Origin: a virus
IMG/VR virus record: IMGVR_UViG_3300046002_000117
Coordinates: 1 to 23,615 of that record
DNA length: 23,615 nucleotides
Reading direction: 5' to 3' (one strand)
Below the pieces are notes generated by a model. It was given only the letters and a program-made list of their open reading frames with translations. It was not told the origin of the DNA and made no database searches. Below, piece by piece: positions 9,128 through 23,615 of this stretch (position 1 is its first letter; every line of letters starts with the position of its first letter). Made by a program: the position numbers and the translations under genes.

Positions 9128-9129
9128 TT

Positions 9130-9576: not shown

Positions 9577-9578
9577 TT

Positions 9579-10241
9579 TTAATCGCCGCCATTACCACCG
9601 CCATCACCACCGCCATCCATTGTTACAGTAGTTTCGCTTGCTTGTGTTTGTGTTTTGGGAGGCGAACCAAAATCAAAGAACGTATTGGATATTTCAGATA
9701 CCCTGTCCATTGATGTTTCGCTTGTGCCGTAAATAAATTGCCAATTGCTTTTATTTGTTTTTACGCCTGACAATCTGTTTTCTAAAACACGGCGCATGGA
9801 CGAACATGAAATTGAACATGTTGCCACGCGTGTACGCATTTCCGTATTGAAATCTTCGGTAATGGAAACGCTGTTAATAATGCCTTGATAGCGTTTAAAA
9901 AACTGCGTTGTTGGCGTTGTGATAATTTGGTTGTTGGAATCAAAGAAACCACGCCACACTTCCACCAATGAGCCTTTAATGTCGTTTGACAAAATAAGCG
10001 CAATGTTTGTAGATGAAATGCCTGTTAACGCAATGGTCATGTCATCAGACGTTGCCTTAATATCGCGCTGTACGTCACCAACATTAAGCAAAGCACCAAG
10101 ATTTGTAAACGTAATTCCACCCACTGTAATGGGTGCGGCGGCATTGCAAAACGTGTAAATCGTTCCGGCTGTTCCAACAGTCAATTTTACAAATTCTGCA
10201 TGATTGATTTGTGAGCCTGTTACGGCGTTTATGGTTGTCAT
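9579..10241 (-). CDS. Tail tip protein, lambda gpL/DUF2163-like
   Basis: The 220-residue protein begins with a beta-rich region containing F-V-K-L-T-V-G, then I-T-V-G-G-I-T-F-T-N-L-G-A-L-L. A central segment reads M-T-I-A-L-T-G-I and V-E-V-W-R-G-F-F-D, and later there is C-S-I-S-C-S-S-M-R-R-V-L-E-N-R-L-S-G. This is the layout of baseplate-hub or tip proteins of the lambda gpL or gene-transfer-agent hub type, where cysteines sometimes bind metal or an Fe-S cluster. Two Cys here (about 144 and 148) could play that part, but a full set is not visible. The last 12 residues are a Gly/Asp run encoded by a short tandem repeat. The ATG overlaps the previous stop as ATGA. Position after the tape measure and Dit-like genes supports a tip role. 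Confidence 0.65.
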   Translation of the reverse strand: MTTINAVTGSQINHAEFVKLTVGTAGTIYTFCNAAAPITVGGITFTNLGALLNVGDVQRDIKATSDDMTIALTGISSTNIALILSNDIKGSLVEVWRGFFDSNNQIITTPTTQFFKRYQGIINSVSITEDFNTEMRTRVATCSISCSSMRRVLENRLSGVKTNKSNWQFIYGTSETSMDRVSEISNTFFDFGSPPKTQTQASETTVTMDGGGDGGGNGGD

Positions 10242-10834
10242 GTTATGTACTCACGGAAAACAAATGGCGCATCCCATTGAACAAACGCACCATCCGTCAT
10301 TGGGTTAAGTGTATATGTTGGGCATGATTCAGCAACAACTGTAAACGTGCAAGCATTGCCAATGTAAACAGTTGTTCCTGATGCGGGTGTACCAATCAAG
10401 GGACGATTAATGCTTACGGATGAACCCGCACTGTCAGCAGTTACTTTGTACGTGTAACCACTAACCATAATGAAATCACCCGCCTTGAATGTTCCATTGG
10501 ACGTTAACGCAAGTGTTTGTGTGTTAGCAACAGGCGCACCATTTAAAGTAGCCGCCGTAGCCGTACCGCGCATTTCGGTAAACCAAGATAAATTGGAACT
10601 ATTGAACGTAATAGTTTCGGGCAATTGCCTGTCCAAATTGTCAATGCTTTGGATAACGTCACGAACTTGTGGGTAATACAAATACGCATGTGGTTGGATT
10701 GTGAACACCCAAGGCACTGCGGTCAGGTATTGCGCAACTGTAATAAATCCAGAACGCGCCACTTGTTGTCCAACAGTACGGCGATTATTCACCGTCATGG
10801 ATTGCTGTATTTCAAAGATGGTTTGGAAACTCAT
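10238..10834 (-). CDS. Distal tail (Dit)-like/minor tail protein
   Basis: This 198-residue protein follows the tape measure directly, with an ATGA overlap and GAGGT before the start. The first 60 residues are mixed helical. From about 110 to 165 there is a beta domain with K-A-G-D-F-I-M-V-S-G-Y-T-Y-K-V-T-A and I-N-R-P-L. The C-terminus (P-T-Y-T-L-N-P ... W-D-A-P-F-V-F-R-E-Y-I) resembles the ending of distal tail or lambda gpM-like proteins, which close the tube and seat the hub. Gene order (tape measure, this gene, gpL-like gene) fits that assignment. Sequence similarity alone is weak, and minor tail protein is the safe name. Confidence 0.6.
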   Translation of the reverse strand: MSFQTIFEIQQSMTVNNRRTVGQQVARSGFITVAQYLTAVPWVFTIQPHAYLYYPQVRDVIQSIDNLDRQLPETITFNSSNLSWFTEMRGTATAATLNGAPVANTQTLALTSNGTFKAGDFIMVSGYTYKVTADSAGSSVSINRPLIGTPASGTTVYIGNACTFTVVAESCPTYTLNPMTDGAFVQWDAPFVFREYIT

Positions 10835-12840
10835 GCTCGACCTCGATTCACTGCCAATGATTTACCGGCGTATTGATTTGCCGCCCAAACCGCATTAGGG
10901 CTTCCAAGCAATCTTTCTTCAAACGACTTGGTGTCAATAGCATTAATGTAATTGTTTGTTACGTTGGTTGTGCCGCCCATTCCAGATAATGCATGGTTTG
11001 GAATAATGCTTCCCGCTGTACGTGGCACAAACAATTCAGGACCACGTTCACCAACAATGCTTGGTTGTCCAACGGCAGGTGAACCACCATCCGCGTAACC
11101 CGGAACGCCTGTCATTGCGGCTGGCTGATACGGGTTTGCACGCATGCCAAACATTGAACCAAACATGGCACTTAAAAAATTAGATGCCGCCGCTTTCATT
11201 TGAATAGCAATCATGTCTTGAATGATGCTTTTGGCAAGGTCTTTAAAACCAATCTTGCCTGTTCTAACAAAGCGGTCAATTGCTGATTCCATGTTGCCCA
11301 TTAATGAATCAAATGCTTTTGCACCTTGTTCTAATTCGGTTGGCATGTCGCGTATGAAACGCATTGCACTTTTTGCAAAGCCTTCTTCGTATGAACCTTG
11401 GCGAGTTTGCAATGTTAATTGGTAACGCTGATGCGCAATTGCCAATGCTTTGTTTGCCAATTCAACTTCACGCGCTTCGGCTTCGGCTCGGGCTGTTGCA
11501 GTTAAATCCCTGCGGTTATCCAATTCTTCTAAATTAGCCGCCAATTGCTGTCGAATTTGCAAACGTTCCCGTTCCAATGTGAAATCTTCTTGGCGCATGC
11601 CTGTTGCTTTCATTTCCAACAACATCATTTCTTTTTCGTTATCAAGCGCAATGCCCATTAAACGTTGACGTTCAGCAACAGCGGCGTTTCCTTTTTCATA
11701 ACTTGCAAAGAATTCAGCACGCGCTTTGGCATCTTCTTCAGCCGCTTTTTGAGCATTTGCCGCGCCTTGTGCGTAAATCTGCATTTGACGTTTTCTAGCC
11801 GCTTCTGCTTCTTTGGATTCAGCAACGGCTCGACCACCGCCAGTTTCCGATTTGGATTTTAAATAATCTGTACGGCGTGGGTCATTGGGATTACGCCCAA
11901 CTGTTTCACCCATTACCTGAGCGTAGAAAAAATCTAATTTATCCCTTCGGATTTTTGCTTCCAACGCACTACGGGACATAAGCCCTGTGGTTTCGGCTTC
12001 CGTTCCCGGAATTAATGATTTAAAAATTGATATTGTTGTTTGGAATTGTGCAACGATGCCTTCAATAACAAATGCAACGTTTGCCGCCGCAACAGCAACG
12101 GATTGGAATACAGTTTTAAATACTTGACCTAATATGTTTGTTTCGCCAGCAAGTTCTTTAATGTAATCAATGCTTAGTTTTAAAACAGGACCCAGTTGCG
12201 TAGCCAATGTAAGCATTACATCGCGGGATGTTTTTGCCAATAAATCATAAGTTTCTGCCGCGTCTTTAATTGCTTTTTCTTGTTCGGCAATTAATGGGTT
12301 GGTTGTAGAAACTTTGTCAGCAAACCCAACCATGTCCACGCCTTTTGCGGCTTTGGAAAATATTTCCATTGCCTTGGCGTTACGTGTAATTGGGTCTTCA
12401 ATTTTTGCTAAATTAGCAATCAGTTTATTAAGCAATTCCTCTTGGGACAATTTGCCTAAATCTTTTAAACTAACGCCCAAAGCAATGGCAGTTTTTTGTG
12501 CCTTGTCTGAACCACCAGCGGCTTCGTCAATAAACTTGGTAAACGCAGACAGCATTTTGCCGGCGTTATCTGCTTGACCACCTGAAGCGGCAAGCGCATT
12601 GGACAATTGCAATACTGTACCAATGGCAACTTCGTTGGCATCAGCAACGTCTGCCAGTTCGTCAGCATATTTAATGGCGGCGGCACTGGCGGCAACCAAA
12701 GCCGTAGCACCAATTTTTCCAAATTTTTCTGCTGATTGGCTAAATTGTTCTAGTTTTTTGCCAGCGGCATCTAAACCTCGGCTGAATTCCGCAGAATCTA
12801 AGCCTAGAACAACGCCAAGGCGGGCAATCATATTAGCCAT
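10831..12840 (-). CDS. Tail length tape measure protein
   Basis: The 669-residue protein is largely alpha-helical. It has an Ala-rich N-terminal part (L-D-A-A-G-K-K-L-E-Q-F then S-A-E-K-F-G-K-I-G), a hydrophobic segment near 240-265 and a charged coiled-coil region (about 340-480). The lambda-type C-terminal block follows (F-V-R-T-G-K-I-G-F-K-D-L-A-K-S-I-I), then G-Y-A-D-G-G from residue 581 and G-E-R-G-P-E-L-F-V-P. Tape measure proteins set tail length and are ejected with the DNA. By the usual 0.15 nm per residue, the tail would be about 100 nm. The ATG at 12840 has GAGGT 5 nt upstream and overlaps the chaperone T stop by 8 bases. It comes directly after the tail chaperones, as in most siphoviruses. 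Confidence 0.93.
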   Translation of the reverse strand: MANMIARLGVVLGLDSAEFSRGLDAAGKKLEQFSQSAEKFGKIGATALVAASAAAIKYADELADVADANEVAIGTVLQLSNALAASGGQADNAGKMLSAFTKFIDEAAGGSDKAQKTAIALGVSLKDLGKLSQEELLNKLIANLAKIEDPITRNAKAMEIFSKAAKGVDMVGFADKVSTTNPLIAEQEKAIKDAAETYDLLAKTSRDVMLTLATQLGPVLKLSIDYIKELAGETNILGQVFKTVFQSVAVAAANVAFVIEGIVAQFQTTISIFKSLIPGTEAETTGLMSRSALEAKIRRDKLDFFYAQVMGETVGRNPNDPRRTDYLKSKSETGGGRAVAESKEAEAARKRQMQIYAQGAANAQKAAEEDAKARAEFFASYEKGNAAVAERQRLMGIALDNEKEMMLLEMKATGMRQEDFTLERERLQIRQQLAANLEELDNRRDLTATARAEAEAREVELANKALAIAHQRYQLTLQTRQGSYEEGFAKSAMRFIRDMPTELEQGAKAFDSLMGNMESAIDRFVRTGKIGFKDLAKSIIQDMIAIQMKAAASNFLSAMFGSMFGMRANPYQPAAMTGVPGYADGGSPAVGQPSIVGERGPELFVPRTAGSIIPNHALSGMGGTTNVTNNYINAIDTKSFEERLLGSPNAVWAANQYAGKSLAVNRGRA

Positions 12841-13186
12841 GTTTTACCTCAAACAATTTTTTATCAAACCCCTGCGCCTGTGTCATAAACATTAAAAGGC
12901 TATCGTTTACAGCCGTTTGTTTATCACTGTCAGGCAATGGTGGATAGATGTAATCATACGCATTACCTAGAACATTGGCTAGTTTATACGGAGGTGCGTT
13001 TGATGGTCGCATATAGTTAAACACGCCGTTTGTCAGCGTTGCTAATTGCGTCAACAGTCCGTAATTCCCAACCAGTCCATCGGCATACATCGTTTGGATG
13101 TTTGCCATGGTTACATCATCAATGTCTTGTATTGTTTCTAAAGTATGCCCGTTGAAAATCATTGCCGCTTGACATTGGCTTTTCAA
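12833..13186 (-). CDS. Tail chaperone T segment, made as G-T fusion by -1 frameshift
   Basis: This frame has no good start of its own. Its first possible start is a TTG at 13186 without a Shine-Dalgarno, and the first ATG lies inside the downstream stem. It is open back to a stop at about 13215, so it is reachable by a -1 slip on GGGAAAC at 13204-13198 in the G gene. The fusion would then be 12833-13677, about 281 residues, reading through G residue 160 into L-I-R-S-L-K-S-Q. In lambda the G and G-T products coat the tape measure and recruit tube subunits; G:GT stoichiometry is set by frameshifting. The T segment here (about 117 residues, N-A-P-P-Y-K-L in the middle) is not conserved enough to identify by itself. 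Position before the tape measure supports the role strongly. Confidence 0.8.
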   Translation of the reverse strand: MKSQCQAAMIFNGHTLETIQDIDDVTMANIQTMYADGLVGNYGLLTQLATLTNGVFNYMRPSNAPPYKLANVLGNAYDYIYPPLPDSDKQTAVNDSLLMFMTQAQGFDKKLFEVKHG

Positions 13187-13204
13187 CGAGCGTATTAGTT
13201 TCCC
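13150..13204 (-). promoter_or_regulatory. Predicted -1 ribosomal frameshift cassette
   Basis: On the minus strand the last G codons are CGG GGA AAC TAA. The heptamer G-GGA-AAC (13204-13198) is a perfect X-XXY-YYZ slippery site in the correct phase, close to the lambda site GGGAAAG. The zero-frame stop follows immediately. Nine bases further on starts a perfect 9-bp inverted repeat, CGTTGAAAA (13188-13180) and TTTTCAACG (13158-13150), with a 21-nt loop; GCC/GGC inside the loop could extend the stem. An AGGA about 6 nt upstream of the heptamer could act as an internal stimulatory Shine-Dalgarno. After slippage the T frame runs to the stop at 12833. All these elements are seen directly; efficiency cannot be judged. 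Confidence 0.85.
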
Positions 13205-13677
13205 CGCGCTTCCTTATATGTGGGGCTAATAACTTCCGCAATCTTTTCTACAATTTGCATTTGCACAGGCAACGGGAATTCTTCCTCGATATCGGCATAC
13301 GTCAAATTTTCTAGGCTTGCACCTTCCAATTCAGGAACAAGCAATTTGAAAAATTCAGTAATACGCGCTTCCGTAATGGCTTTGTTCTTAGCCGCGTCAC
13401 GCATGGAACGTCCGTCAACAATTACATCGTTATCCGTAAATTTAAATTCTTCAGTTTGCGTTGTTTCAAATTGACGCAATGAAGAAGTAATTTCTACGTA
13501 GATTTTTTGCACAGTATCGTCATCAGGTTCAGCAACTTTTTTATAAATTTCATCTGATTCTGAAACCAATGGAATACGGACTTTAAATGTATGACCGCCA
13601 AGTTCAAATGAACGGGTCAATAAATTCTTTTTATTGGCTTGGTATTTTTCACCAAACGCATTTGCGAACTTTGTCAT
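13195..13677 (-). CDS. Tail assembly chaperone G
   Basis: This 160-residue protein has a beta N-terminus (S-F-E-L-G-G-H-T-F-K-V-R-I-P-L) followed by acidic helices. It contains I-T-E-F-F-K-L-L-V-P-E-L-E-G and D-I-E-E-E-F-P-L-P-V. Small acidic proteins of this layout are the tail assembly chaperones (TAC, lambda gpG type) that bind the tape measure before tube assembly and are not part of the virion. It ends at a TAA directly behind a slippery heptamer. The start overlaps the previous stop (ATGA at 13677-13674). Recognition rests mainly on position, size and the frameshift cassette. Confidence 0.82.
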   Translation of the reverse strand: MTKFANAFGEKYQANKKNLLTRSFELGGHTFKVRIPLVSESDEIYKKVAEPDDDTVQKIYVEITSSLRQFETTQTEEFKFTDNDVIVDGRSMRDAAKNKAITEARITEFFKLLVPELEGASLENLTYADIEEEFPLPVQMQIVEKIAEVISPTYKEARGN

Positions 13678-14231
13678 TTCTGTTTTGCCTTGTATTGAAG
13701 TAACCGCCTACCGATAATTTCGCCAAGCCTTTTTGCGGTTTGTGGGGCTTGGCTTTCCATTGCTGGACGCAAGAATGGATGTGCCGCGTTATGGGCAGAA
13801 CCAAATTCTTGCGCTATTGCTCTTGCGTCATATGGGAAATCAATTGAATATGCAAATTCTTTAAATTTTGCTCGATATTCTTTTTTATCAGAACGATACA
13901 AAGATTCATTTTCTGCAAAAAATTGATTTTTAAGTTTCTTTGGAAACGCTTTTGTCGTTACAGCCGCAATGACTGTATCCGTTTCGTGGATGTATTTTGA
14001 ACGTTTGTCTTTTCTTGTTGGACGTCTAGCCTCAACAATCAGTGTTCTTGACAATGCACCAGTATCAACAGGCGCGGTTGATTTTGCCGTGGTAAGAACA
14101 GGCTTCATTGCCTCGCGTACAGCGGGAACTAATATTTTGCTTCGGGCTTTTTTATCACCAATTTCACCAGCAAGTTCATCAAATGCGGCAAGCACCTCTT
14201 TCAAACCTTCAACTTTGAAAGATACTTGCAT
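13674..14231 (-). CDS. HK97-gp10-like neck/tail completion protein, displaced
   Basis: The 185-residue protein carries the gp10-family hallmarks: V-K-A-E-like N-terminal helix (G-L-K-E-V-L-A-A-F-D-E-L), A-P-V-D-T-G-A-L-S-R-T-L at about 54-65, and G-S-A-H-N-A-A-H-P-F-L-R-P-A near 148-161. HK97 gp10 and its relatives join the tail to the head-closure complex. It is longer than usual because of a Lys-rich insert (about 80-135). Normally this gene lies between head closure and tail terminator; here it follows the tube gene and two small ORFs. The ATG overlaps nothing upstream but is 3 nt after the 74-residue ORF stop. Family membership is clear, exact function in this phage less so. Confidence 0.8.
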   Translation of the reverse strand: MQVSFKVEGLKEVLAAFDELAGEIGDKKARSKILVPAVREAMKPVLTTAKSTAPVDTGALSRTLIVEARRPTRKDKRSKYIHETDTVIAAVTTKAFPKKLKNQFFAENESLYRSDKKEYRAKFKEFAYSIDFPYDARAIAQEFGSAHNAAHPFLRPAMESQAPQTAKRLGEIIGRRLLQYKAKQK

Positions 14232-14234
14232 GGT

Positions 14235-14459
14235 TTAACCCGCCTTGATAATTTTATGAAAAATTAGGTGATTAACTTGCAACGCGTAATCAACGACTTC
14301 TTCGGGCGTTAATTTGTCGGCATGATTCTGAGCAATCTGATGCGCAAGCGTAACCGCAGTCATACGTTGCTGAGAAAAGCCAAACCAGTCTTTGCGTTCA
14401 CTGGCTTGGCTTACTAGGAAACCCAACAAATCGTTTGTGTCTTTTATTGTCGTTGTCAT
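14235..14459 (-). CDS. Small hypothetical helical protein (74 aa)
   Basis: I do not recognise this protein. It is predicted mostly helical, with no membrane segment and no cysteine. It contains K-D-W-F-G-F-S-Q-Q-R near residue 23-32 and a second amphipathic stretch (L-T-P-E-E-V-V-D-Y-A-L-Q-V). It is 2 nt from the preceding small gene and 3 nt from the gp10-like gene, so it belongs to the same operon. The position between tube and chaperones suggests a tail assembly helper, which is inference only. Confidence 0.65.
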   Translation of the reverse strand: MTTTIKDTNDLLGFLVSQASERKDWFGFSQQRMTAVTLAHQIAQNHADKLTPEEVVDYALQVNHLIFHKIIKAG

Positions 14460-14461
14460 AT

Positions 14462-14659
14462 TTATTCTTTTGTTTTCTTGGGAGGCACATAAGGGAAATA
14501 TGATGCCAAAAACTGCAATGCAGTTTGTTCTTCAGACCCGTCAGCCGCGCTTGCCAAAGCATCAGCAACTTCTTTGGGGTCTAGGTCCATGCCCCTGACC
14601 GCAAGGTCAAAGGGCAAGTACGTAGTCGTCAATAATGTTACTGCGTCTTTAATCGTCAT
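14462..14659 (-). CDS. Small hypothetical helical protein (65 aa)
   Basis: Function is unknown. The protein is short and acidic in its middle (D-L-D-P-K-E-V-A-D-A-L-A-S-A-A-D) and ends with a Lys-rich tail (V-P-P-K-K-T-K-E). It starts 2 nt after the tail tube stop with no strong Shine-Dalgarno, so it probably depends on coupling. A conserved tight arrangement with the 74-residue gene argues that both are real. Confidence 0.62.
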   Translation of the reverse strand: MTIKDAVTLLTTTYLPFDLAVRGMDLDPKEVADALASAADGSEEQTALQFLASYFPYVPPKKTKE

Positions 14660-14661
14660 GA

Positions 14662-15156
14662 TTAAACGCTGTTTGACCAGCCGTATTGGTTACCACGGGG
14701 GTGAATTGTGAATGTAACCTTGGCTTCAGCACCGGGTGCGGAATCAATTGTCCATTGGCTAACACGACCGTTGAACGCGTAATTCACGATTCCAGTGCCA
14801 TCAGTTGCGCTAATAACAAACGTGCGGTCAATTGTGCCGTTATAAGCGTCACCACGAAGCATCAGCAAAACTGTGTCGCTAGGATTCCAAGCGGCTGTAA
14901 TGCTCATGCTTGTAGGTGCAGATTGAACGGGGATTTTGTCCGATTGACGTGAACCAGCAACGCCAAAAGATGCAACAGCATCGTCCTGACCAAATGCGGG
15001 GATTGCTTCAACAGGAACCAAATTGCCAGAAACTGCCAAAGCAGAAACAGAAGCATAGGTTGACAATGCAGAAGTGGTCAACGGTGTTGGAGTTGTTGTC
15101 GGCTGTGCGTATAGCGTTGCACTAAAGCCGGGCAAAATTTTACTTGGTAAAGCCAT
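14662..15156 (-). CDS. Major tail (tube) protein
   Basis: The 164-residue protein begins M-A-L-P-S-K-I-L-P-G-F and contains S-G-N-L-V-P-V-E-A-I-P-A-F-G, then S-M-S-I-T-A-A-W-N-P-S-D. The end has V-S-Q-W-T-I-D-S-A-P-G and V-T-F-T-I-H-P-R-G. The size, the beta-strand pattern and a P-S/T-S-M-S-I-T strand followed by a helix match siphovirus tube subunits that stack as hexamer rings. The gene has the strongest Shine-Dalgarno in the tail region (AAAGGA, 8 nt before ATG), after a 35-base gap, as expected for an abundant protein. It follows the tail terminator gene. Sequence identity to a named tube family cannot be judged here. Confidence 0.78.
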   Translation of the reverse strand: MALPSKILPGFSATLYAQPTTTPTPLTTSALSTYASVSALAVSGNLVPVEAIPAFGQDDAVASFGVAGSRQSDKIPVQSAPTSMSITAAWNPSDTVLLMLRGDAYNGTIDRTFVISATDGTGIVNYAFNGRVSQWTIDSAPGAEAKVTFTIHPRGNQYGWSNSV

Positions 15157-15191
15157 TTTGAGTTTCCTTTAAAGAGTTGAACAATCGTGTC

Positions 15192-15614
15192 TTATGTTGG
15201 AATATCTATTGTGCAATCAATAAAGATTTGCGCCAACTTATTTTCATTGTCGTAACTGTTATACAGCCACTGGCAATCCGCTTTGGAAATATAAAAACCA
15301 CCATCAGCAGGGTTTCCCAACATACCGCTATAACCGTGTAGCGATTGTAGTATCTGATTGGAAATTGTGAAACCATCTTCTATCTGCTGTGTAAACACGC
15401 TGATTTGAAAAACTGGTCTGTCAATGCCCTTAACCGATTGATACGAACCGGTATAAACGTCTTGGTGCACGTTTCTAAGCATCCACACTAGAAACTTTGG
15501 CTGTGTTGCAAAATTGCGGTTAAACGCCGCATAAACGGGCACAGGCGTGACAATATTAGCCAATTGATATTGGATTGCTTTGCCGTAATTAACAACGTTA
15601 GTTTGTGCTGTCAT
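15192..15614 (-). CDS. Tail terminator/tail completion protein
   Basis: The 140-residue protein has Y-Q-L-A-N-I-V-T-P-V-P-V-Y-A-A-F near the start and D-R-P-V-F-Q-I-S-V-F-T in the middle, then an L-H-G-Y-S-G turn. This is the layout of DUF3168-type tail terminators (short helix, then a mixed sheet with a R-x-x-x-Q-I-S strand). Tail terminators cap the finished tube and join it to the head. The ATG overlaps the stop of the head-closure gene as ATGA at 15614-15611. Position after the connector genes and directly before the tube gene agrees well. Confidence 0.68.
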   Translation of the reverse strand: MTAQTNVVNYGKAIQYQLANIVTPVPVYAAFNRNFATQPKFLVWMLRNVHQDVYTGSYQSVKGIDRPVFQISVFTQQIEDGFTISNQILQSLHGYSGMLGNPADGGFYISKADCQWLYNSYDNENKLAQIFIDCTIDIPT

Positions 15615-15955
15615 ACTGCCACCACGGGGTCGTTACGGACGCACAAGAATTTAACTGTCATGCGGTCATCGGATTCGCGAACGCTGTCAATACGCCAATT
15701 AACGCTTTTCCATTCAATTGAATATAAGTTTTGACTGTCCACAATTGTTCTGGTGTTAGGCGTGTAATTCAACGTAAATTCAACAACGTCAGCATAAACA
15801 CGATATTTTTCTGAAATGCGAACATGATTGGCAACGGAATGAACACGCGCACGCGTATCAAACCATTTTGTTATGGTCGTGGATTGCTCACCAAAGGAAC
15901 TTGCGCCAAAGGTTAATTGGTTTATGCGAATGTTCTCAAAGCGAGCAATTGCCAT
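15611..15955 (-). CDS. Head-closure (head-tail joining) protein
   Basis: The 114-residue protein has I-N-Q-L-T-F-G near its start, then W-F-D-T-R-A-R-V-H-S-V and a strand pattern ending in W-R-I-D-S-V-R-E-S-D-D-R-M-T-V-K-F-L-C-V. Its size and beta-barrel pattern agree with SPP1 gp16/HK97 gp7-type head-closure proteins, which seal the portal-connector channel after packaging. It starts right after the connector stop (TAA-ATG). Assignment is by size, pattern and order. Confidence 0.65.
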   Translation of the reverse strand: MAIARFENIRINQLTFGASSFGEQSTTITKWFDTRARVHSVANHVRISEKYRVYADVVEFTLNYTPNTRTIVDSQNLYSIEWKSVNWRIDSVRESDDRMTVKFLCVRNDPVVAV

Positions 15956-16618
15956 TTACATCACCAGTGGTTTGTAAGGACGAAGCAAGGTGGCAACGCC
16001 AAACGGAACTTCATGCAATCTGCCATCGGTTGTGTTTGACCTGTTGTTATACAAATGGGTTAACAACATCAAAGCCGCCTGTTTAATAACAGGGAACGTG
16101 GACAAAAACCCCGAACTTTGGGTGTACGTCACAATGATTGGATTCTCAACAAACTGATTTAACGTGTTTGGAATCGTGTTCAAAATAACGCGGTTACCCG
16201 TTGGGTCGTATGAATATTCTGTTGACGCAATTACCACAGGCACAGTGTTTGATGTGCTGTAAAACTCAACACAATCAATGGTTACACCCGGACGCGATTG
16301 CGTTGGACCTGAAACTTCAGGCAAATCCAAATAAACGGCAGTGTTATACAAACCAAAATTGGTGTAATACACGCGCCATGTGGTTGGATAAATTGCGATG
16401 CCCAAATAATCTTCAATTGCCATGCGTGTGGCAAGTTCCAACGATTGCAGATATGAATCTTGGCTTTCGTCTTGGAACAGATTTAATTGTTGCGTGATTT
16501 CATCAAGCGTAAGCCATGGCGTGACCACATCGCGGTCAACTTGTTCCATCTTTGCATAGTTGTACGGATTACGATTGTTCGCGTAAAACGGTGCAAGTGT
16601 TAGATTTTCAACAGCCAT
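15956..16618 (-). CDS. Head-tail connector protein (HK97 gp6-like)
   Basis: This 220-residue protein contains W-L-T-L-D-E-I-T-Q-Q-L, then Y-L-Q-S-L-E-L-A-T-R-M-A-I-E-D-Y-L-G, which is the helical signature of gp6-like connectors. The C-terminal helix F-P-V-I-K-Q-A-A-L-M-L-L-T-H-L-Y-N-N-R is also typical. Such proteins form a ring under the portal. It has an inserted beta region between the helices (about 85-180), making it roughly twice the shortest members. The start has AAGGA 6 nt upstream. It is the first gene after the capsid pair. Confidence 0.82.
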   Translation of the reverse strand: MAVENLTLAPFYANNRNPYNYAKMEQVDRDVVTPWLTLDEITQQLNLFQDESQDSYLQSLELATRMAIEDYLGIAIYPTTWRVYYTNFGLYNTAVYLDLPEVSGPTQSRPGVTIDCVEFYSTSNTVPVVIASTEYSYDPTGNRVILNTIPNTLNQFVENPIIVTYTQSSGFLSTFPVIKQAALMLLTHLYNNRSNTTDGRLHEVPFGVATLLRPYKPLVM

Positions 16619-16632
16619 GACTGTTCCTTAAA

Positions 16633-17649
16633 TTAAGCCGCAGATGCACGCACACCAGCAAACGGGTCACGGACGGTGCTTGCAAGGCGGCGTTCGGCGT
16701 AAATGGTAACAAAACCGGGTGCTGTTTGTTCAAATACTTGTACGGACATTTCTTCAACGTCTGCAATGGTCATGAATCTATCCCAATTTGCCAAATAAAT
16801 GGGGAAAGTTTCTGACAAATATGAATTGGGGATAACAGGCCATCCGAAGATTGAACCAACTGCACCACCTTCACCGGGTTCTCCCAATTCAAGGAACAAT
16901 GGCAAACCTGCGGTGTCTTTCAACTGACGCAAAGTTTGAATCATTGTTGGTGTCATGTGCCATGCCGTTGTTGGCAATGCCCAATATTGCGCTGGCAATG
17001 AATTGGCAATGTTTGTAATCTTGTTATAAGTCGGTGTAGTTCCACCCAATGATGTTGTCACCAATGTGTGAATGCCGTTTGTAATGGCTGTACCGCTTGT
17101 TCCATAAGCCGCTGAACCACTCAAGTACGTATCCAAACCACGCAAGCCGTATGTCGCGCCTGTGGTGGTTGTGGTTGAACCAGATTGGTCGTTGTTTGTG
17201 CCCATAGACGCACCTTCTTGTTGGCTAAATTCTAATGCAAGGTCAGCCAACAGGGCTTCTTCGATACCATTAATGTCGTCCAATGCGGCTGTACGAACAG
17301 GCAATTGGGCGTTAATGATTCGGGTAGGCATAACCCAATAAGCAGTTGCCGTGTCGGGCGAACCGGTGTTAGGTGTTGCGTTTGGATTCCATGGGTTTGC
17401 GCCAGTTGCGTTACCAGTTTTGGCAACAAACTGAACAGCAGAAGAATTGGGCGTTTTAATGTTGCGTGTGCCCATACGGAATGGGTTGGCATAACGCAAT
17501 GTTGAAAAAGCGTCATCGAAATAAGTGCGACCGCCAATATCCAAGCCCGAGCCAGTCAATGTCGATGCTTCACGCAAGTCGATTGTTACTTTACGATTTT
17601 CGGCAATCGCCAATTTGATGCCGTCTAGAATTTTTTGGGTTGCACTCAT
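16633..17649 (-). CDS. Second HK97-fold capsid protein paralogue, no delta domain
   Basis: This 338-residue protein aligns with the preceding capsid protein over almost its whole length. Shared blocks are L-R-E-A-S-T-L-T-G-S-G (residues 25-35 here, 104-114 there), V/I-R-T-A-A-L-D-D-I, N-N-D-Q-S-G-S-T-T-T, G-L-R-G-L, L-P-x-Q-Y-W and Q-T-A-P-G-F near the end. It lacks the first ~80 residues, which in the partner form the scaffolding delta domain. HK97 capsid proteins make the icosahedral shell; a second copy may form special vertices or be a minor or alternative shell subunit. ATG at 17649 has AAAGGA 7 nt upstream; a TTG 18 nt earlier lacks one. It lies just behind a terminator, so expression is probably lower than that of its partner. 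It has diverged strongly, so the duplication is old. Confidence 0.88.
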   Translation of the reverse strand: MSATQKILDGIKLAIAENRKVTIDLREASTLTGSGLDIGGRTYFDDAFSTLRYANPFRMGTRNIKTPNSSAVQFVAKTGNATGANPWNPNATPNTGSPDTATAYWVMPTRIINAQLPVRTAALDDINGIEEALLADLALEFSQQEGASMGTNNDQSGSTTTTTGATYGLRGLDTYLSGSAAYGTSGTAITNGIHTLVTTSLGGTTPTYNKITNIANSLPAQYWALPTTAWHMTPTMIQTLRQLKDTAGLPLFLELGEPGEGGAVGSIFGWPVIPNSYLSETFPIYLANWDRFMTIADVEEMSVQVFEQTAPGFVTIYAERRLASTVRDPFAGVRASAA

Positions 17650-17670
17650 TTCAATATCCTTTAACAAAAG

Positions 17671-17695
17671 AAAAATGGGGAACCGAAGTTCCCCA
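17671..17695 (-). terminator. Rho-independent terminator (UUCG tetraloop) between capsid genes
   Basis: On the minus strand an 8-bp stem, TGGGGAAC and GTTCCCCA, closes a TTCG loop (17695-17676) and is followed by TTTTTCTTTT. C(UUCG)G is an unusually stable tetraloop. It starts 6 bases past the stop of the major capsid gene and ends about 22 bases before the ATG of the capsid paralogue. No promoter can fit in the remaining gap, so downstream genes must be read by leakage or antitermination, or the hairpin serves as an mRNA 3' stabiliser. Confidence 0.85.
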
Positions 17696-17700
17696 CTTCA

Positions 17701-19044
17701 TCAAGCACCAGTGGCTGTTGAACGATAGCGAATAATGCTAAATGGATCAACAATGCTGGAACACAGACGTTTTTCCCCGAAGAATGTGATAAATCCTGGG
17801 GCTGTTTGGTCGTAGCGACGCAGAACCATGTTCAGGCGGTCCACGATTGTATGACCACGGCTCCAGTCACCAAAGTACATTGGGTACTGGCTGTTAGTGC
17901 CGGCAGAACCACCAGAAGCGGTTGGGCTTTCAATGTAGTTGTTAACAACAACGTCGAAACCAAGCAACTTACCAACGATACCTTCGTACACCAATGGTGA
18001 CATACGTTCGAACACAGGTGTGCCGTTGTCGTCAACCAAACCGCGAATTCCAGCCAACATCAAAGGTGACACGACAAATTTGGCAGATGGAGTCCAATAT
18101 TGTTGTGGCAACAGGTGGATGAAATTGATAATGTCAGCAAATGTCACATTGTTTGCAGTACCAAAACCGTTTGTGGTCAATTGGTCATACGTTGCAATGC
18201 TGTGCAAACCATCGGATGTAGCAGAACCGCTAGAACCGAAAGCCGCTGTGCTGATTGTGCCGCCTGTGTAGGTGGAATTTGCACCGGGGTATGAATTCAA
18301 ACCGCGCAAACCAGATGTGCCACCAGTTGATGTGGTGGTAGAACCGGATTGGTCGTTATTGATAATCATGGATTGGCCTTCAGCGGCACTGAATTCGCTG
18401 AGCATGTCGTCAACGACGTTGCTTTCCAAACCATCAATATCGTCCAAAGCGGCGGTACGGATTGGGAACTGAACGTTCAAATCGGCAAGGTTCAATTGCC
18501 AAATGTTCGTTGCTTCAGTTGTAGCCGCGCCGTTGTTTTGGATTGTATAACCCCAAGCAGGTCCAGCATTGCCGGTTTTTGCTCTAAATTGGTAGGTTGA
18601 ACCATCAGTCGCAACAGTGCGTGACACGCCGCGCATAGGGTTCATCAAACGCAAAGCGTGGAACACGGGGTCATAAGCGGTACGACCACCGATGCCAGCG
18701 CCAGAGCCTGTCAATGTTGAGGCTTCGCGCAAGTATGCGTTATGCTGGTCAACAGATTCCCACAGTTTGATTTCTTTTTCCAAGCGACCGCCTGTTTTAT
18801 GGAAATCACGCAATTGCTCTTTAACCATGCGGTTAACATCGCCACGAATTGTCTTTGCGGGTGCGCGGATAATTTCGGGGACTTGAATAGAGGCAACTTT
18901 GGCTTCCAGAGCGGTTAATTTCTCTTGAATTTCTGCTTTTGCAGATTCCACAGTTGTGGCGACTTCGGCTTTCACCGCTTCAATTTTGGATTCGTTAGAC
19001 ACGGCAATCGCGTCAACTTTTTCCAGTACTTTATCCATAGACAT
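17701..19044 (-). CDS. Major capsid protein (HK97 fold) with delta domain
   Basis: The 447-residue protein has a charged coiled-coil N-terminus (about 1-95, Lys/Glu/Ala-rich), like the HK97 delta domain that acts as built-in scaffold and is removed by the protease. The mature fold seems to start near 100-105 (L-R-E-A-S-T-L-T-G-S-G at 104-114). It runs through N-N-D-Q-S-G-S (229-235), L-L-P-Q-Q-Y-W (311-317) and Q-T-A-P-G-F (413-418). Gene order portal, protease, capsid confirms it. I chose the ATG at 19044 because AAAAGGA lies 8 nt upstream, just after the protease stop. A longer frame to a TTG at 19110 would overlap the protease and has no Shine-Dalgarno. A strong terminator follows directly. 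HK97-type cross-linking cannot be judged. Confidence 0.93.
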   Translation of the reverse strand: MSMDKVLEKVDAIAVSNESKIEAVKAEVATTVESAKAEIQEKLTALEAKVASIQVPEIIRAPAKTIRGDVNRMVKEQLRDFHKTGGRLEKEIKLWESVDQHNAYLREASTLTGSGAGIGGRTAYDPVFHALRLMNPMRGVSRTVATDGSTYQFRAKTGNAGPAWGYTIQNNGAATTEATNIWQLNLADLNVQFPIRTAALDDIDGLESNVVDDMLSEFSAAEGQSMIINNDQSGSTTTSTGGTSGLRGLNSYPGANSTYTGGTISTAAFGSSGSATSDGLHSIATYDQLTTNGFGTANNVTFADIINFIHLLPQQYWTPSAKFVVSPLMLAGIRGLVDDNGTPVFERMSPLVYEGIVGKLLGFDVVVNNYIESPTASGGSAGTNSQYPMYFGDWSRGHTIVDRLNMVLRRYDQTAPGFITFFGEKRLCSSIVDPFSIIRYRSTATGA

Positions 19045-19057
19045 TTTAAATTTCCTT

Positions 19058-19846
19058 TTAAATGCGTTTTTCAAGTGCCTTAACCAACTCACGCGCTTCA
19101 AAAGCGGCAAGCAATGCTTCGGCTTCGTTTACCACCGCATCAGGCTCACCCTGAATTGGTAGAGATTCAAGTGGCTTCTGAACCGCCTCACGCTGTTCCA
19201 GAGCGTTCTTGAATACCAAAGATGCGGTGGTCGCATCTTTCCGAGTAAGACCCGCCTCACGCAGAGCCTTTTCGACTGTACGAATGTTCAATACACCTTG
19301 TGCGCTGAACATTTCCAATTTGTTAATTTCCGCATTGGGATTGTTTGGGTACATCACAACGGATACTTCGCGCAAACCACCCTTGGTAATTTGGAAATAA
19401 CCTTCTTCGTAATCATCTTCGCATGGGTTGCCTTCTGCATCTACCCAACAGGCTTCGTCTGCATACGCGCCAACAGAAACGCCACCAAACATCTTGGGGG
19501 ATTCTTTTAGGATTTGATAAAGGTCATTGCCGCCCACAGTGTTTGTGTACAAGCGGCCTTTTGCTGTCATGCCGGTATCATCAAATTCAAATGAATACCA
19601 TTCGCCCATTGGCATGCCAAGGTCATTGTGATTCAAGAACATCGGCAAAGGTTTGCCGCTTTCATTAAATTCATTTGCCCAATCCATGAAGCCTTCAGGT
19701 TGGTAATTGAATTTCCTACCATCTGCGCCTTCGCGTGCGCCCCATGTGGTGCATACCGCTTCAATCAACCCGCTTGGCTGGGCGGCCTCGTTTGCGTTTG
19801 GCGTTAGGCTGACTTTGGCTTCGCAAATCAGATTTAATTGTTTCAT
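19058..19846 (-). CDS. Prohead maturation protease (S78/HK97 family)
   Basis: This is a 262-residue serine protease of the assemblin-like fold that trims capsid delta domains inside the prohead and then itself. The conserved core covers about 26-170. His73 in F-L-N-H-N-D, Ser124 in G-G-V-S-V-G and an acidic residue in L-R-E-V-S-V-V (Glu160) match the S78 catalytic sites. The C-terminal 80 residues are helical and probably mediate scaffold contact. The ATG at 19846 has GGGGTG 5 nt upstream. Its first 28 codons overlap, in another frame, the end of the AT-hook ORF. It ends 13 nt before the capsid start. Confidence 0.9.
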   Translation of the reverse strand: MKQLNLICEAKVSLTPNANEAAQPSGLIEAVCTTWGAREGADGRKFNYQPEGFMDWANEFNESGKPLPMFLNHNDLGMPMGEWYSFEFDDTGMTAKGRLYTNTVGGNDLYQILKESPKMFGGVSVGAYADEACWVDAEGNPCEDDYEEGYFQITKGGLREVSVVMYPNNPNAEINKLEMFSAQGVLNIRTVEKALREAGLTRKDATTASLVFKNALEQREAVQKPLESLPIQGEPDAVVNEAEALLAAFEARELVKALEKRI

Positions 19847-19976
19847 TTATCACCCCGTTGTGAATAGATTGATTGTCGTCTGTTATCTTATGGGGTTTTT
19901 CTATTACGGCGAGTGTAACATTATCTGACTTTACTTGTGAAGTCAAATGTGCCAGCATTTTTTTCAGATTATTCAT
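19761..19976 (-). CDS. Small protein with C-terminal AT-hook-like motif, overprinting protease start
   Basis: The 71-residue ORF starts on a TGATG overlap with the portal stop. It fills the otherwise empty 129-base gap before the protease and then runs 86 bases into the protease gene in another frame. Residues 1-35 look helical; the middle is polar. Residues 60-69 read K-R-K-R-G-R-P-A-K-R, which contains the R-G-R-P core of AT-hooks that bind the minor groove of AT-rich DNA. The stop follows two residues later. I know no named family. Coupled start and gap filling argue that it is translated; a weak Shine-Dalgarno and lack of a homologue in memory argue caution. A DNA-binding or head-assembly role is inference. 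Confidence 0.6.
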   Translation of the reverse strand: MNNLKKMLAHLTSQVKSDNVTLAVIEKPHKITDDNQSIHNGVINETIKSDLRSQSQPNAKRKRGRPAKRVD

Positions 19977-21376
19977 CAGGTCGTCCCGATGTTCATCTTA
20001 CTTTTCTGATTACCGCCGCCGCCACCCGTGTCTTGTGGTGAAGTGCCCGCAATTGGTTTATCTGCCTTTTTATCAAGCGGTGCAAGAATGTCACCACCAT
20101 CAATTTCGGGCATGTTCATGTATTCACGCGCTTCGTTGACCGTCATGATACCCGCTTTAACGCCAGACGTCACAAAATTCATTTGGTCCAATGCCGCGCC
20201 CTTTAAAAAGTCCTTGGTATCAAAACGCACGCAAAGGTTTGGATAACCTTTCAACAAATGCTGTTTCAATTTTTGCTCAAGGCTAATAACAGTTGGATAC
20301 ATCACGGTTTTATAAAACTCGTCCAACATGGTTTGGGTATTGTTATATTTTTGGTCCGCAATACCAAGCATTGCAGGGGGCACGCCAAACAAACCGCAAA
20401 TGCGCTTCATTGTTTGCTCTTTTAACGCGGCGGCTTCTGCGTCTTGCAACGTAAGCATCTTGATTGCGTCATACTTCATGCCTTGGTCAAGCAACATACC
20501 TTGACCCGCTTTGCTTGGGTCACTGGCGCGACTGCCCGTCATGGCGTTCCACGTTTCTTTAATACGTGAAGCAATTTCCTTAAATTTTGCGTCAGGGATA
20601 ACTTGGTCGGTGTAGAAAATGCCCGAAGGCTTTGCACCGTTTTGCATAATAAAGTTGGCGTAAACGTCAATGTCAGAATCCAATGCCACCAACTCGGTTG
20701 CCAAGATGCCTTTGTTAAAACCTGACGAACCTTGCCATGCCGCTTCTTTTACGTGCATAACTTGAAACGCGTCCAATGGTTCATCTTTGCTAAACCCATA
20801 TGAAGGCGTAGACAATCGATAAGACGGGTAACGCGTGGGCGTTAATTGAACAGTAATTAACGTTGCGTCAAGGTTATACATTTCCAAAGGCGTTGTGCTG
20901 GAATTCTTTTGGTTTTCACGCCACCACAATGTAAATGATTCACCGGCAAGGTCTTGCCACATCATCCATTGATACCAAAATTCGTATGCGCTTTGAAAAT
21001 TGTTTGGGTTTTGCAAAAGGTTCAAAACCTGACGCGCTTTTGCTTTGTCGCGTGCGCCAACGTTTTTATCGGTTAACGCATTTACAAAACTACCATCTTC
21101 AGCCTTGGACATAATACTAATGCCGCATTGAGATAATGCACGCGCTTTAACGCCAACGCATCCCATAACGGTTGAATTACGCGTAAGGGCTGATATATCC
21201 AATACCCGACCCGCAACTGTGGTGCTGGAAGTGGTTACATATAACAGTTGCTGACCCGCAGATTGTTGTCTTTGCGTGCCATAAATGACCTGATTACCTA
21301 ATTGGAGTTGACCAAGAACCGTGTTCGATTCGTTCAGATTTTGTTTTTTCTTAGCGAAAATGTCCAAAATACCCAT
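19976..21376 (-). CDS. Portal protein (HK97 family)
   Basis: The 466-residue protein is a dodecameric ring subunit through which DNA enters and leaves the head. It starts with M-G-I-L-D-I-F-A-K-K-K, and the core shows the family blocks V-M-G-C-V-G-V-K-A-R-A-L, then F-W-Y-Q-W-M-M-W-Q-D-L-A-G-E-S-F, then I-C-G-L-F-G-V-P-P-A-M-L-G and T-V-N-E-A-R at the end. A Gly-run and a Lys-rich tail close the chain (G-G-G-G-G-N-Q-K-S-K). The start has GGGAGA upstream. It lies 30 nt after the large terminase and its stop overlaps the start of the small AT-hook ORF. Family and role are clear. Confidence 0.93.
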   Translation of the reverse strand: MGILDIFAKKKQNLNESNTVLGQLQLGNQVIYGTQRQQSAGQQLLYVTTSSTTVAGRVLDISALTRNSTVMGCVGVKARALSQCGISIMSKAEDGSFVNALTDKNVGARDKAKARQVLNLLQNPNNFQSAYEFWYQWMMWQDLAGESFTLWWRENQKNSSTTPLEMYNLDATLITVQLTPTRYPSYRLSTPSYGFSKDEPLDAFQVMHVKEAAWQGSSGFNKGILATELVALDSDIDVYANFIMQNGAKPSGIFYTDQVIPDAKFKEIASRIKETWNAMTGSRASDPSKAGQGMLLDQGMKYDAIKMLTLQDAEAAALKEQTMKRICGLFGVPPAMLGIADQKYNNTQTMLDEFYKTVMYPTVISLEQKLKQHLLKGYPNLCVRFDTKDFLKGAALDQMNFVTSGVKAGIMTVNEAREYMNMPEIDGGDILAPLDKKADKPIAGTSPQDTGGGGGNQKSKMNIGTT

Positions 21377-21406
21377 GTTTTTCTCCCAAATTTTGGTGAT
21401 CCTACA

Positions 21407-23077
21407 TCAAAACGAACGAAATCCAAAACTATCGCTTACATACGGGTTGTCCAACGAACAATGAGCCGCAATAATCATTGAGATAATTCCATCAACCTTT
21501 GCGGCTTTGTCGGCTTCGTTCTTGCGCACCTTGATATTACCATTGATATCTGTGTAACACTCGCAATTGCCTAATTGCCAACCAACAAACGGGTTGCCAT
21601 CGTGTTTAATTTGTTTGTTTAATATCAATTTTTCAATGTATTTGCTCGGATTGTTTAACACCGCCATGCCTTGCCCAACTTTTTTAACTGGGATGCCGGC
21701 ATCGTGCAAACGTGCAACTAAACTGGCGGCGTTATAAGCGTCATACCCAACTTCTTTGACATTGTATTTTTGGCATTGTTGGTTAATGATGTACTCGCTA
21801 ATTTCGCGGTCATCCATAACATTGCCTTCCGTTAATTTCAAAATGCCCGTGGAAATTGCCACTTGGAAAATGTCCAAATAGTGTTTTGGAATAAATGCAA
21901 GCGAATCTTCTGGCAAAAAGAATTGCCATTCCGCTTCATAATCCATTTCGCCAAAACGCTTCAAAGTACACACGGCGTTCAAATCGCGTGTTGCCGCCAA
22001 GTCAAACCCAATAAACACGGCTTCGGGTTCTTTGCGTGGTTCAACAATAATACATTTGGGGTCATCCCAATGTTGTCTGTCCACCCATGCGGCATTTGCA
22101 GAAACCCACACGTTTAGCGTTTTGCATAGGAATTCATTTAACGCGGCTGGCTTGTGTTTGGCTTCTTCTGCGCGTGCGGCAATGGCATCCTCAAATACGG
22201 ATATGCCATGCATTGGGTTGGCTTTGGCCCAATTAACGGGGTCACGCCAATCATCGCCAAGGTCTAGCCCGTACAGCAAGCCAAACCATCGCGGGTTATC
22301 GGTTGCCTCGCCACGAAGCATCGACTGATACATGGACAAGTCCTCATAAAACTTTGTGTCCTTCGTGAACGAGGCGGTCGTAATATACACGCGTAGCGGA
22401 TTTTGTCTAGCCACCATACCGGAATGCAACACTTCAACGCTGTTTCGGTCGGTAATCTGGGCGGCTTCGTCAACCACAACGGCAGACGGATTTTTACCGT
22501 CACCTGATTTTTTGGTGTCACGACTTAACGCCTTGAACATGGATTGCGAATCGCCTTTTTTCCCAATTGTGTATTTGCTTGGGTTAAACAATTCTGCCAA
22601 TTCACGGGGCATGGATTCAATAAACCCCTTGGCGGCATCAAACACAATGGTTGCCTGTTCGCGGTTGGTCGCCAATGTGAAAACTTCGGGTCCCGCTTCG
22701 CCAAAAAGCAATTCATACAGGGTTAAAACTGCGGTCAGTGTAGATTTACCCGCCTTGCGCGGAATAAACAAAATCACATCCGTGACCATGCGCTTGGAAA
22801 TATCTTTTTTGCTTCTAAACCCGTAAATGGCGCAAATTAGCAATATCTGGAATGGTTCAAGAACAACGCCTTCACCCGCTTGTGGTCCTTTGGTATGACG
22901 CAACGTTGCCGCAAATTGCAATACATGGTCAGGTGCGCGGCTGTCGAATATCCATTCCCATTCTTTGTTTTCCAATTGGTTTATAAACCGCTGGCAAGCA
23001 AGCCGAACATCATTGCAAACGTTAACCTCGCCTTTGGCAACTGAATGCGCATAGGCTATCCCGTCTTGGTAATTCAT
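21407..23077 (-). CDS. Terminase large subunit
   Basis: This 556-residue protein packages DNA. The ATPase half has Walker A at about 105-112 (I-P-R-K-A-G-K-S) and Walker B at 200-204 (V-V-V-D-E), followed by an I-T-T-A-S coupling motif at 232-236. The nuclease half has D359 in F-D-L-A-A-T, D446 in G-Y-D-A-Y-N and D529 in K-V-D-G, fitting the RNase H-like metal site. Its VGQG segment near 467-470 resembles HK97-type terminases. The start overlaps the small subunit stop (ATGA at 23077-23074), so the two are translationally coupled. The packaging strategy (cos or pac) cannot be decided here. Confidence 0.95.
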   Translation of the reverse strand: MNYQDGIAYAHSVAKGEVNVCNDVRLACQRFINQLENKEWEWIFDSRAPDHVLQFAATLRHTKGPQAGEGVVLEPFQILLICAIYGFRSKKDISKRMVTDVILFIPRKAGKSTLTAVLTLYELLFGEAGPEVFTLATNREQATIVFDAAKGFIESMPRELAELFNPSKYTIGKKGDSQSMFKALSRDTKKSGDGKNPSAVVVDEAAQITDRNSVEVLHSGMVARQNPLRVYITTASFTKDTKFYEDLSMYQSMLRGEATDNPRWFGLLYGLDLGDDWRDPVNWAKANPMHGISVFEDAIAARAEEAKHKPAALNEFLCKTLNVWVSANAAWVDRQHWDDPKCIIVEPRKEPEAVFIGFDLAATRDLNAVCTLKRFGEMDYEAEWQFFLPEDSLAFIPKHYLDIFQVAISTGILKLTEGNVMDDREISEYIINQQCQKYNVKEVGYDAYNAASLVARLHDAGIPVKKVGQGMAVLNNPSKYIEKLILNKQIKHDGNPFVGWQLGNCECYTDINGNIKVRKNEADKAAKVDGIISMIIAAHCSLDNPYVSDSFGFRSF

Positions 23078-23544
23078 TTAGCGAACGGACCTTTGAGAAA
23101 TTGGGCAACGGGGCTGTCATCTTCGGATTTACCGGCAGACAACCGACTGCGTGGGGTTAACCCTAGTTCATTCATGATTTGGATTATGAGCGTCATCGTC
23201 TTGTTACGCACCGACAAATATGGATTCGGGCCAACAGTTGCGCCACCATTAAACGTGGAAATGATGCCGCCCTTTTTAATTGCCGCCGTACATTTGACGT
23301 AAACATCAATGTGGTCAGCCAACATTGCCAAGGTGTGTTTGTCTTGGTCGTTGCCAATGCCATAAACGTTGTACAGAAATTCAGCCGTTTCTTCGATAAA
23401 CCGGTTTTTGTCCCATGCATCAGGGTTGTCCACCCATTCGGCTCGGGGGATTCTTTTTTTTAAATTGTCGGGCAACGCGGTAGGCATTCCCTTACGCGGC
23501 GTGGTCCCGTCAACCAAGTGGAGTTCAGGCGGTTTTTTGTTCAT
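23074..23544 (-). CDS. Terminase small subunit (P27 family)
   Basis: The 156-residue protein starts with a basic, Pro-rich tail (K-K-P-P-E-L-H-L-V-D-G-T-T-P-R-K-G), typical of P27-like small terminases. A helical middle contains T-L-A-M-L-A-D-H-I-D-V-Y. The C-terminal signature is N-P-Y-L-S-V-R-N-K (about 108-116) and E-L-G-L-T-P-R-S-R-L (about 127-136). It recognises the packaging site and activates the large subunit. It is the first gene of the packaging-head operon in view. The start is the ATG at 23544, preceded by CCGGTCC, which is not a strong Shine-Dalgarno. Confidence 0.9.
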   Translation of the reverse strand: MNKKPPELHLVDGTTPRKGMPTALPDNLKKRIPRAEWVDNPDAWDKNRFIEETAEFLYNVYGIGNDQDKHTLAMLADHIDVYVKCTAAIKKGGIISTFNGGATVGPNPYLSVRNKTMTLIIQIMNELGLTPRSRLSAGKSEDDSPVAQFLKGPFAK

Positions 23545-23580
23545 GGACCGGATGCTAATGTATTAGACCCCATGTTGTCA

Positions 23581-23599
23581 AATTACATTGCACGTAATT
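23581..23599. promoter_or_regulatory. Inverted repeat upstream of terminase, possible operator
   Basis: AATTAC and GTAATT (6 bp) are spaced by 7 bases, upstream of the first packaging gene. A TTGACA box (minus strand, 23581-23576) abuts it, but no good -10 lies 16-18 bases away. A separate 8-bp palindrome, TGCATGCA, follows at 23599-23606. This 71-base end of the window has no gene; it may hold a control or terminase-binding site. Confidence 0.25.
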
Positions 23600-23615
23600 G
23601 CATGCACACGTTTGT

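Follow-up and report, generated by a model that had tools for sequence, protein, structure and literature searches.

The window, i.e., the whole stretch of 23,615 nucleotides of viral DNA that was analyzed, carries on its minus strand a late operon that begins with the genes for the small and large terminase, the portal protein (19976..21376; PF04860, E=3.8e-58) and an S78 prohead serine protease (19058..19846; PF04586, E=4.8e-9; phrog_3244). The protease gene lies directly upstream of two neighboring capsid genes on the same strand, here called MCP1 and MCP2. MCP1 (17701..19044) runs from an ATG at 19044, with a further in-frame ATG at 19038, to a stop at 17701, and encodes an HK97-type major capsid protein of 447 amino acids with a delta-like N-terminus (PF05065, E=9e-28; phrog_10, E=1.5e-27). 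MCP2 (16633..17649) runs from an ATG at 17649 to a stop at 16633 and encodes a second HK97-fold capsid paralogue of 338 amino acids (PF05065, E=1.4e-20). The sequence between them contains a hairpin resembling an intrinsic terminator (17672..17699, minus strand; GGGGAAC-TTCG-GTTCCCC and a T run) and a Shine-Dalgarno-like AAAGGA ahead of MCP2 (17657..17662, minus strand). The operon continues with a head-tail adaptor gene 14 nt downstream of MCP2 (15956..16618; phrog_40, E=1.2e-15; PF05135), followed by the genes for a head completion protein, a small protein, the major tail protein, the tape measure and the fibres. The product of the gene after the tape measure (10241-10834, minus strand) gives a weak match to a profile of major head proteins (phrog_283, 4.8e-5), and it is likely to share a minor domain rather than to be a third capsid protein.

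The homology of the two proteins extends over the whole capsid core. They align by BLASTP over 339 amino acids with 41% identity and 58% positives (E = 8e-71), and a profile-profile comparison covers 314 columns with 100% probability (E = 5e-91); the identity of the two cores is put at 41-46%. Both score far above the gathering cut-off of PF05065 (Phage_capsid; 97.9 bits for MCP1 and 74.3 bits for MCP2 against 24.2). They differ at the N-terminus, where the LREASTLTGSG block is preceded by 104 residues in MCP1 and by 24 in MCP2. The 104 residues of MCP1 form a delta-like scaffold domain (18733..19044, minus strand) with three predicted helices (3-52, 66-84 and 98-111), which is absent from every MCP2. 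The residual tail of MCP2 (residues 1-24; 17578..17649, minus strand) has one short predicted helix (3-17) before the shared core. A helical N-terminus of about 100 residues and an adjoining S78 protease, by which a delta-type domain is recognized, are thus found for MCP1 and not for MCP2. These results bear out the initial annotation, which had reported a departure from the usual layout with one capsid gene, ordered sequence blocks common to both proteins (every one of which falls within the BLASTP alignment), a helical N-terminus of about 100 residues on the upstream paralogue, and a downstream paralogue without a delta domain that starts about 25 residues before the core. MCP2 may also act as a "pre-trimmed" subunit, as had been proposed. 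A hydrophobic-Lys motif shared by the two proteins about 12-13 residues before the core was considered as a protease cleavage site, and its signal is too weak to claim.

Two other explanations of the short MCP2 were rejected. The MCP2 frame is open for only 16 codons upstream of the ATG (354 amino acids in total), and in relatives it is often closed at the ATG itself; therefore no scaffold domain is concealed by a misplaced start. Nor is MCP2 an isoform made by frameshifting or readthrough of the T7 10A/10B type, as the two proteins are encoded by separate genes, each with its own stop, Shine-Dalgarno-like sequence and ATG.

Structures were predicted with AlphaFold2 from alignments of relatives drawn from the window and from IMG/VR loci, with modest confidence for MCP2 (pLDDT 63, pTM 0.64) as well as for MCP1 (pLDDT 58, pTM 0.53). 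At that confidence, Foldseek matched both paralogues to the shells of the Rhodobacter gene transfer agent (GTA) and HK97 with probability 1.00. The MCP2 model retrieved the GTA capsid first (8.3e-14) and HK97 prohead I next (2.2e-13); the GTA capsid was also the top match of MCP1 (2.0e-11), which matched HK97-type capsids as well. The initial annotation had staked its reading on an HK97 fold in the second protein, and Foldseek indeed places MCP2 among HK97-lineage shells. A sequence search of the PDB with the MCP1 profile gave moderate E-values for the RcGTA capsids and for a single major head protein; the MCP2 profile found no match there. The MCP1 model has at its N-terminus a helix of 50 residues and two shorter helices, an arrangement similar to that of the HK97 scaffold domain, which has two coiled-coil helices and a third helix (PMC10275583).

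Relatives were collected by scanning IMG/VR with MCP1, MCP2, the MCP2 of Methylophilaceae phage P19250A and an MCP1 profile, together with one scan of GTDB genomes, which yielded 247 related loci (some overlapping on one contig) after the window's own copies were set aside. Both genes are present in the order MCP1-MCP2 at 230 of them; at each of the other 17, the contig or fetched stretch ends before the second gene or starts after the first. The loci with both genes complete reduce to 144 distinct protein pairs. In the phage collection, P19250A, which has the same gene order, is the only match to MCP2, and its copy (P19250A_0006, gene 6) is annotated "hypothetical protein"; queried with this copy, the search gave no match beyond its own record. 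A plasmid search with MCP2 gave no match. The suggested search for the same pair in other phages thus recovered it both in a cultured phage and at nearly all related loci. The more distant phages Bcep176, ST64B, PARCL1pr, D14E, a freshwater phage contig and a Rhizobium phage each have one capsid gene, which follows the portal and protease genes. Phage Venkman has been grouped with P19250A at the genus level, with similar synteny reported (PMC8163748), and was considered as a second cultured member. It was rejected because its capsid module is different, and it is absent among the matches listed for the P19250A MCP1. Compared with P19250A (L149, KX815270), the deposited Venkman genome (L150, MT375522) has a podovirus-like head module with a separate scaffolding protein and a different capsid gene. 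One phage contig of the MCP1/MCP2 group (L188, JAHEYD010000010.1) lies inside a metagenome-assembled genome labeled Candidatus Nitrosotalea, an archaeon; this label is probably a binning error, as the remaining matching genome records are proteobacterial.

The origin of the pair was examined in a maximum-likelihood tree of 30 MCP1/MCP2 pairs and six single-capsid outgroup proteins. MCP2 forms one clade with support of 98 and MCP1 forms one clade with weak support of 38, and together they are set apart from the six outgroups with support of 100. The simplest reading of the tree would be one duplication before the group diversified, after which the delta domain was lost from one copy. The branches that place the root are long, and the tree is compatible with MCP2 arising either inside or beside MCP1. 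Between close relatives the median dN/dS is 0.07 for MCP2 and 0.10 for MCP1, which are rough values as synonymous changes are near saturation. MCP2 is therefore under strong purifying selection, which among close relatives is no weaker than that on MCP1; across greater distances, MCP2 varies more than MCP1 (mean identity 0.60 vs. 0.70). The distribution, the tree and the dN/dS values rule out a recent duplication, a pseudogene or an assembly artefact as the source of the pair.

These data also bear on whether MCP2 could work outside the finished shell as an assembly factor or decoy, or be a functionless relic. Lack of the scaffold domain would fit an inability to assemble, and the P19250A copy has passed as a hypothetical protein. 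However, universal retention and a dN/dS of about 0.07 rule out a relic, and a transient factor accounts less well than a shell subunit for conservation of the whole core, in which 50 alignment columns have one and the same residue throughout the two families. We consider an existence outside the shell highly improbable.

Directly 3' of MCP1, the window and all relatives have a GC-rich hairpin with T residues after it. The stems differ widely in sequence among relatives yet still pair. Under a strict terminator test, 98 of the 118 distinct MCP1-MCP2 gaps pass and none of 118 shuffled gaps does, with almost no hits (0.002 per kb) over the 3.5 kb upstream. A hairpin of this kind is also visible in the 20 gaps that fail, and the predicted folding energy is <= -16.6 kcal/mol in all gaps. 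In the window, the hairpin has the most G-C pairs of any terminator-like match in 9000-23615, and the 14-nt spacer between MCP2 and the adaptor gene contains no hairpin. In a minority of loci, strict terminators cluster again about 3.0 kb past the MCP2 start, a position that gene order would place close to where the major tail protein gene ends; the window has no such terminator. The hairpin is not an innovation of the pair. Single-capsid outgroup phages also have one after the capsid gene, hence it is an older feature, with MCP2 on its downstream side. From this position we infer that MCP2 is produced in lower amount than MCP1.

MCP2 sequences follow those of their neighbors poorly. Two loci, L062 and L090, encode MCP1 proteins that are 99.8% identical and MCP2 proteins that are 62% identical, and the DNA flanking MCP2 is about 93-100% identical on both sides. 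Identity breaks near MCP2 codon 30-55 and resumes just past the MCP2 stop. A chimeric assembly is unlikely, since related alleles of both MCP2 kinds recur in several separate assemblies (L061, L065 and L067 vs. L093-L096). When pairwise protein identities were compared over 90 non-redundant loci, those of the protease, MCP1 and the adaptor correlated among themselves (Spearman 0.61-0.69; 0.68-0.69 for MCP1 with its other neighbors), whereas MCP2, despite its central position, correlated with the three at only 0.32-0.34 (0.34 with MCP1). By these sequence comparisons, MCP2 behaves as an exchangeable cassette, which is new here.

Added domains were found on MCP2 as well. The tail ahead of its core is short in nearly all relatives; one subclade (L112-L118, L121, L124, L125 and L240) has gained an unrelated N-terminal domain of about 100 amino acids of the phrog_2859 type (e.g., L112:5946-7271 and L116:7365-8690). 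The domain is joined in frame at the Met that is the normal MCP2 start. A Shine-Dalgarno-like sequence precedes this Met, so these genes may possibly give both a long and a short product. Other occurrences of this domain type include the N-termini of long major capsid proteins in Synechococcus and Roseobacter phages. In a single case (L216:6095-7333), 71 residues are inserted into the E-loop region of MCP2, and the insert matches a family of tail-fibre type (phrog_38233, 5e-17). MCP1 lengths range from 435 to 474 among the distinct pairs, with no comparable additions.

The exchange of MCP2 between near-identical phages, together with the fibre-like insert and the added N-terminal domain, which have no counterpart in MCP1, could be explained if MCP2 were an exposed display subunit valued for its variation, whether for binding surfaces or particles or for evading capsid-sensing host proteins, with its position in the shell being secondary. 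However, purifying selection on MCP2 between close relatives is not relaxed relative to MCP1, no ligand or sensor is known, and recombination hot spots need not mean selection. Variation as the main purpose of MCP2 therefore appears improbable to us.

We favor, at about even confidence, the reading that MCP2 serves in the shell as a dedicated minority component, most likely as the penton protein, and depends on the scaffold of MCP1. MCP1, with its fused delta scaffold, would build the hexons and drive procapsid assembly around the portal. MCP2, having no scaffold of its own, would join the shell solely by co-assembly with MCP1 and occupy the eleven non-portal vertices, with the scaffold supplied by hexon subunits alone; the scaffold towers observed at the HK97 portal likewise belong to hexons (PMC10275583). 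It would be made in smaller amount, as its gene sits behind the terminator, and would number about 55 copies in the virion if the shell is T = 7, an estimate of ours based on HK97 and on the genome size of 38-39 kb. The S78 protease would then cut away the MCP1 delta domain. The match of both proteins to HK97-lineage capsids by profile and by fold, the presence of the pair at every locus with room for it, the separate clades, purifying selection and the hairpin after MCP1 all argue for a shell subunit. Since MCP2 would be a discrete part, its core could be swapped and extra domains tolerated with the rest of the shell unchanged. A tentative extension is that MCP2 is a vertex cassette, i.e., a scaffold-free penton that is exchanged and decorated, such that the corners of the shell diversify and the rest of the capsid stays fixed.

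The penton position is plausible by analogy with two systems. T4 is a large, prolate myovirus in which the scaffold core is separate, and its HK97-fold paralogues gp23 and gp24 both have cleaved N-termini. In T4, gp24 forms the pentamers and gp23 the hexamers (PMC3185693). T4 thus resembles the present phages in having two capsid proteins in one phage genome, and differs from them in that here the module is of siphovirus type and only one paralogue bears a fused scaffold. The stronger precedent is Ccm of SaPIbov5, a capsid-protein homologue 24% identical to the phi12 capsid protein that lacks the long N-arm, exclusively fills the pentamers, and cannot make shells without a delta-bearing partner (PMC8569155). 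MCP2 is likewise a capsid-protein homologue beside a delta-bearing partner and, as a vertex protein should be, distinct from the major capsid protein; its place in pentamers and its dependence would complete the likeness. Ccm is nevertheless satellite-encoded, redirects its helper, and itself bears an 87-residue delta domain (PMC8569155), whereas MCP2 is without one and is paired with the product of a tandem gene in the same phage genome, to which it is 41% identical. HK97 gp5 shares with MCP1 the fused scaffold, the fold and the order terminase-portal-protease-capsid gene, but HK97 has one capsid protein for both hexons and pentons. According to the title of Oh et al. (2014), cited in PMC10275583, the HK97 delta domain is essential for assembly, and a delta-less subunit should therefore need a partner. 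T7 also has two forms of its major capsid protein, 10A and 10B (PMC8785237), which come from one gene via frameshifting and not from two genes.

Several observations speak against the penton reading. T4 gp23 and gp24 begin with removable N-terminal parts, as does Ccm (PMC8569155), thus scaffold loss is no hallmark of known pentons. Single-capsid relatives have a hairpin in this place too, and the major tail protein gene also lies downstream of it, although its product should be abundant. The weak correlation of MCP2 with MCP1 is unlike a tightly co-adapted interface, and the structural models are of modest confidence.

Two other positions within the shell were weighed against pentons. Encapsulins, which are compartments of cells and have neither a portal nor a prohead protease nor a delta domain, offer a precedent for a mosaic in which MCP2 is mixed with MCP1 across hexons and pentons at a variable ratio and with no fixed position, thinning the scaffold or tuning stability. 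In two-component Family 2B encapsulins, two HK97-fold shell proteins co-assemble with variable composition and irregular tiling (PMC12407261), and here, too, there are two HK97-fold genes. The core identity still retained by MCP1 and MCP2, and the interchangeability of MCP2 alleles between backgrounds, are consistent with such mixing. However, the paralogues are kept as two constrained clades, suggesting distinct roles, and they differ systematically in length in the post-spine, A-domain and C-terminal loops, so we judge a mosaic unlikely. Alternatively, MCP2 may be confined to a single special site, e.g., the capsomers that surround the portal or neck, or may determine head size or shape, rather than form all pentons. 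Its gene lies between MCP1 and the adaptor gene, apparently in one transcription unit with the neck genes, and Ccm alters shell shape (PMC8569155). In HK97, however, the portal is contacted by coiled-coil towers of the scaffold domain (PMC10275583), which are precisely what MCP2 is without; the sequence gives no specific support for a portal or neck position, and we find such a place quite unlikely. An alternative shell size, which the initial annotation had listed besides pentons and a special vertex, is less likely since MCP2 is universal and constrained, as a standard component should be.

Two capsid paralogues in one shell are already known. The open-access literature searched yielded no siphovirus module in which the phage encodes both paralogues in tandem, only one of them has a fused scaffold, and the other is swapped as a cassette. 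The pair is universal in a large freshwater phage group, and gene 6 of P19250A and its relatives can now be annotated as capsid-family proteins rather than "hypothetical." A single protein has to make the six-fold as well as the five-fold capsomers of HK97-type phages, and its delta domain is believed to help set capsomer type and shell size. A lineage with a genome of about 38 kb in which this work is apparently divided between one paralogue with a scaffold and one without raises the question of whether pentons need a scaffold, and the cultured member P19250A makes it testable. The exchange of MCP2 among near-identical phages further raises the possibility of diversifying pressure on one part of the shell.
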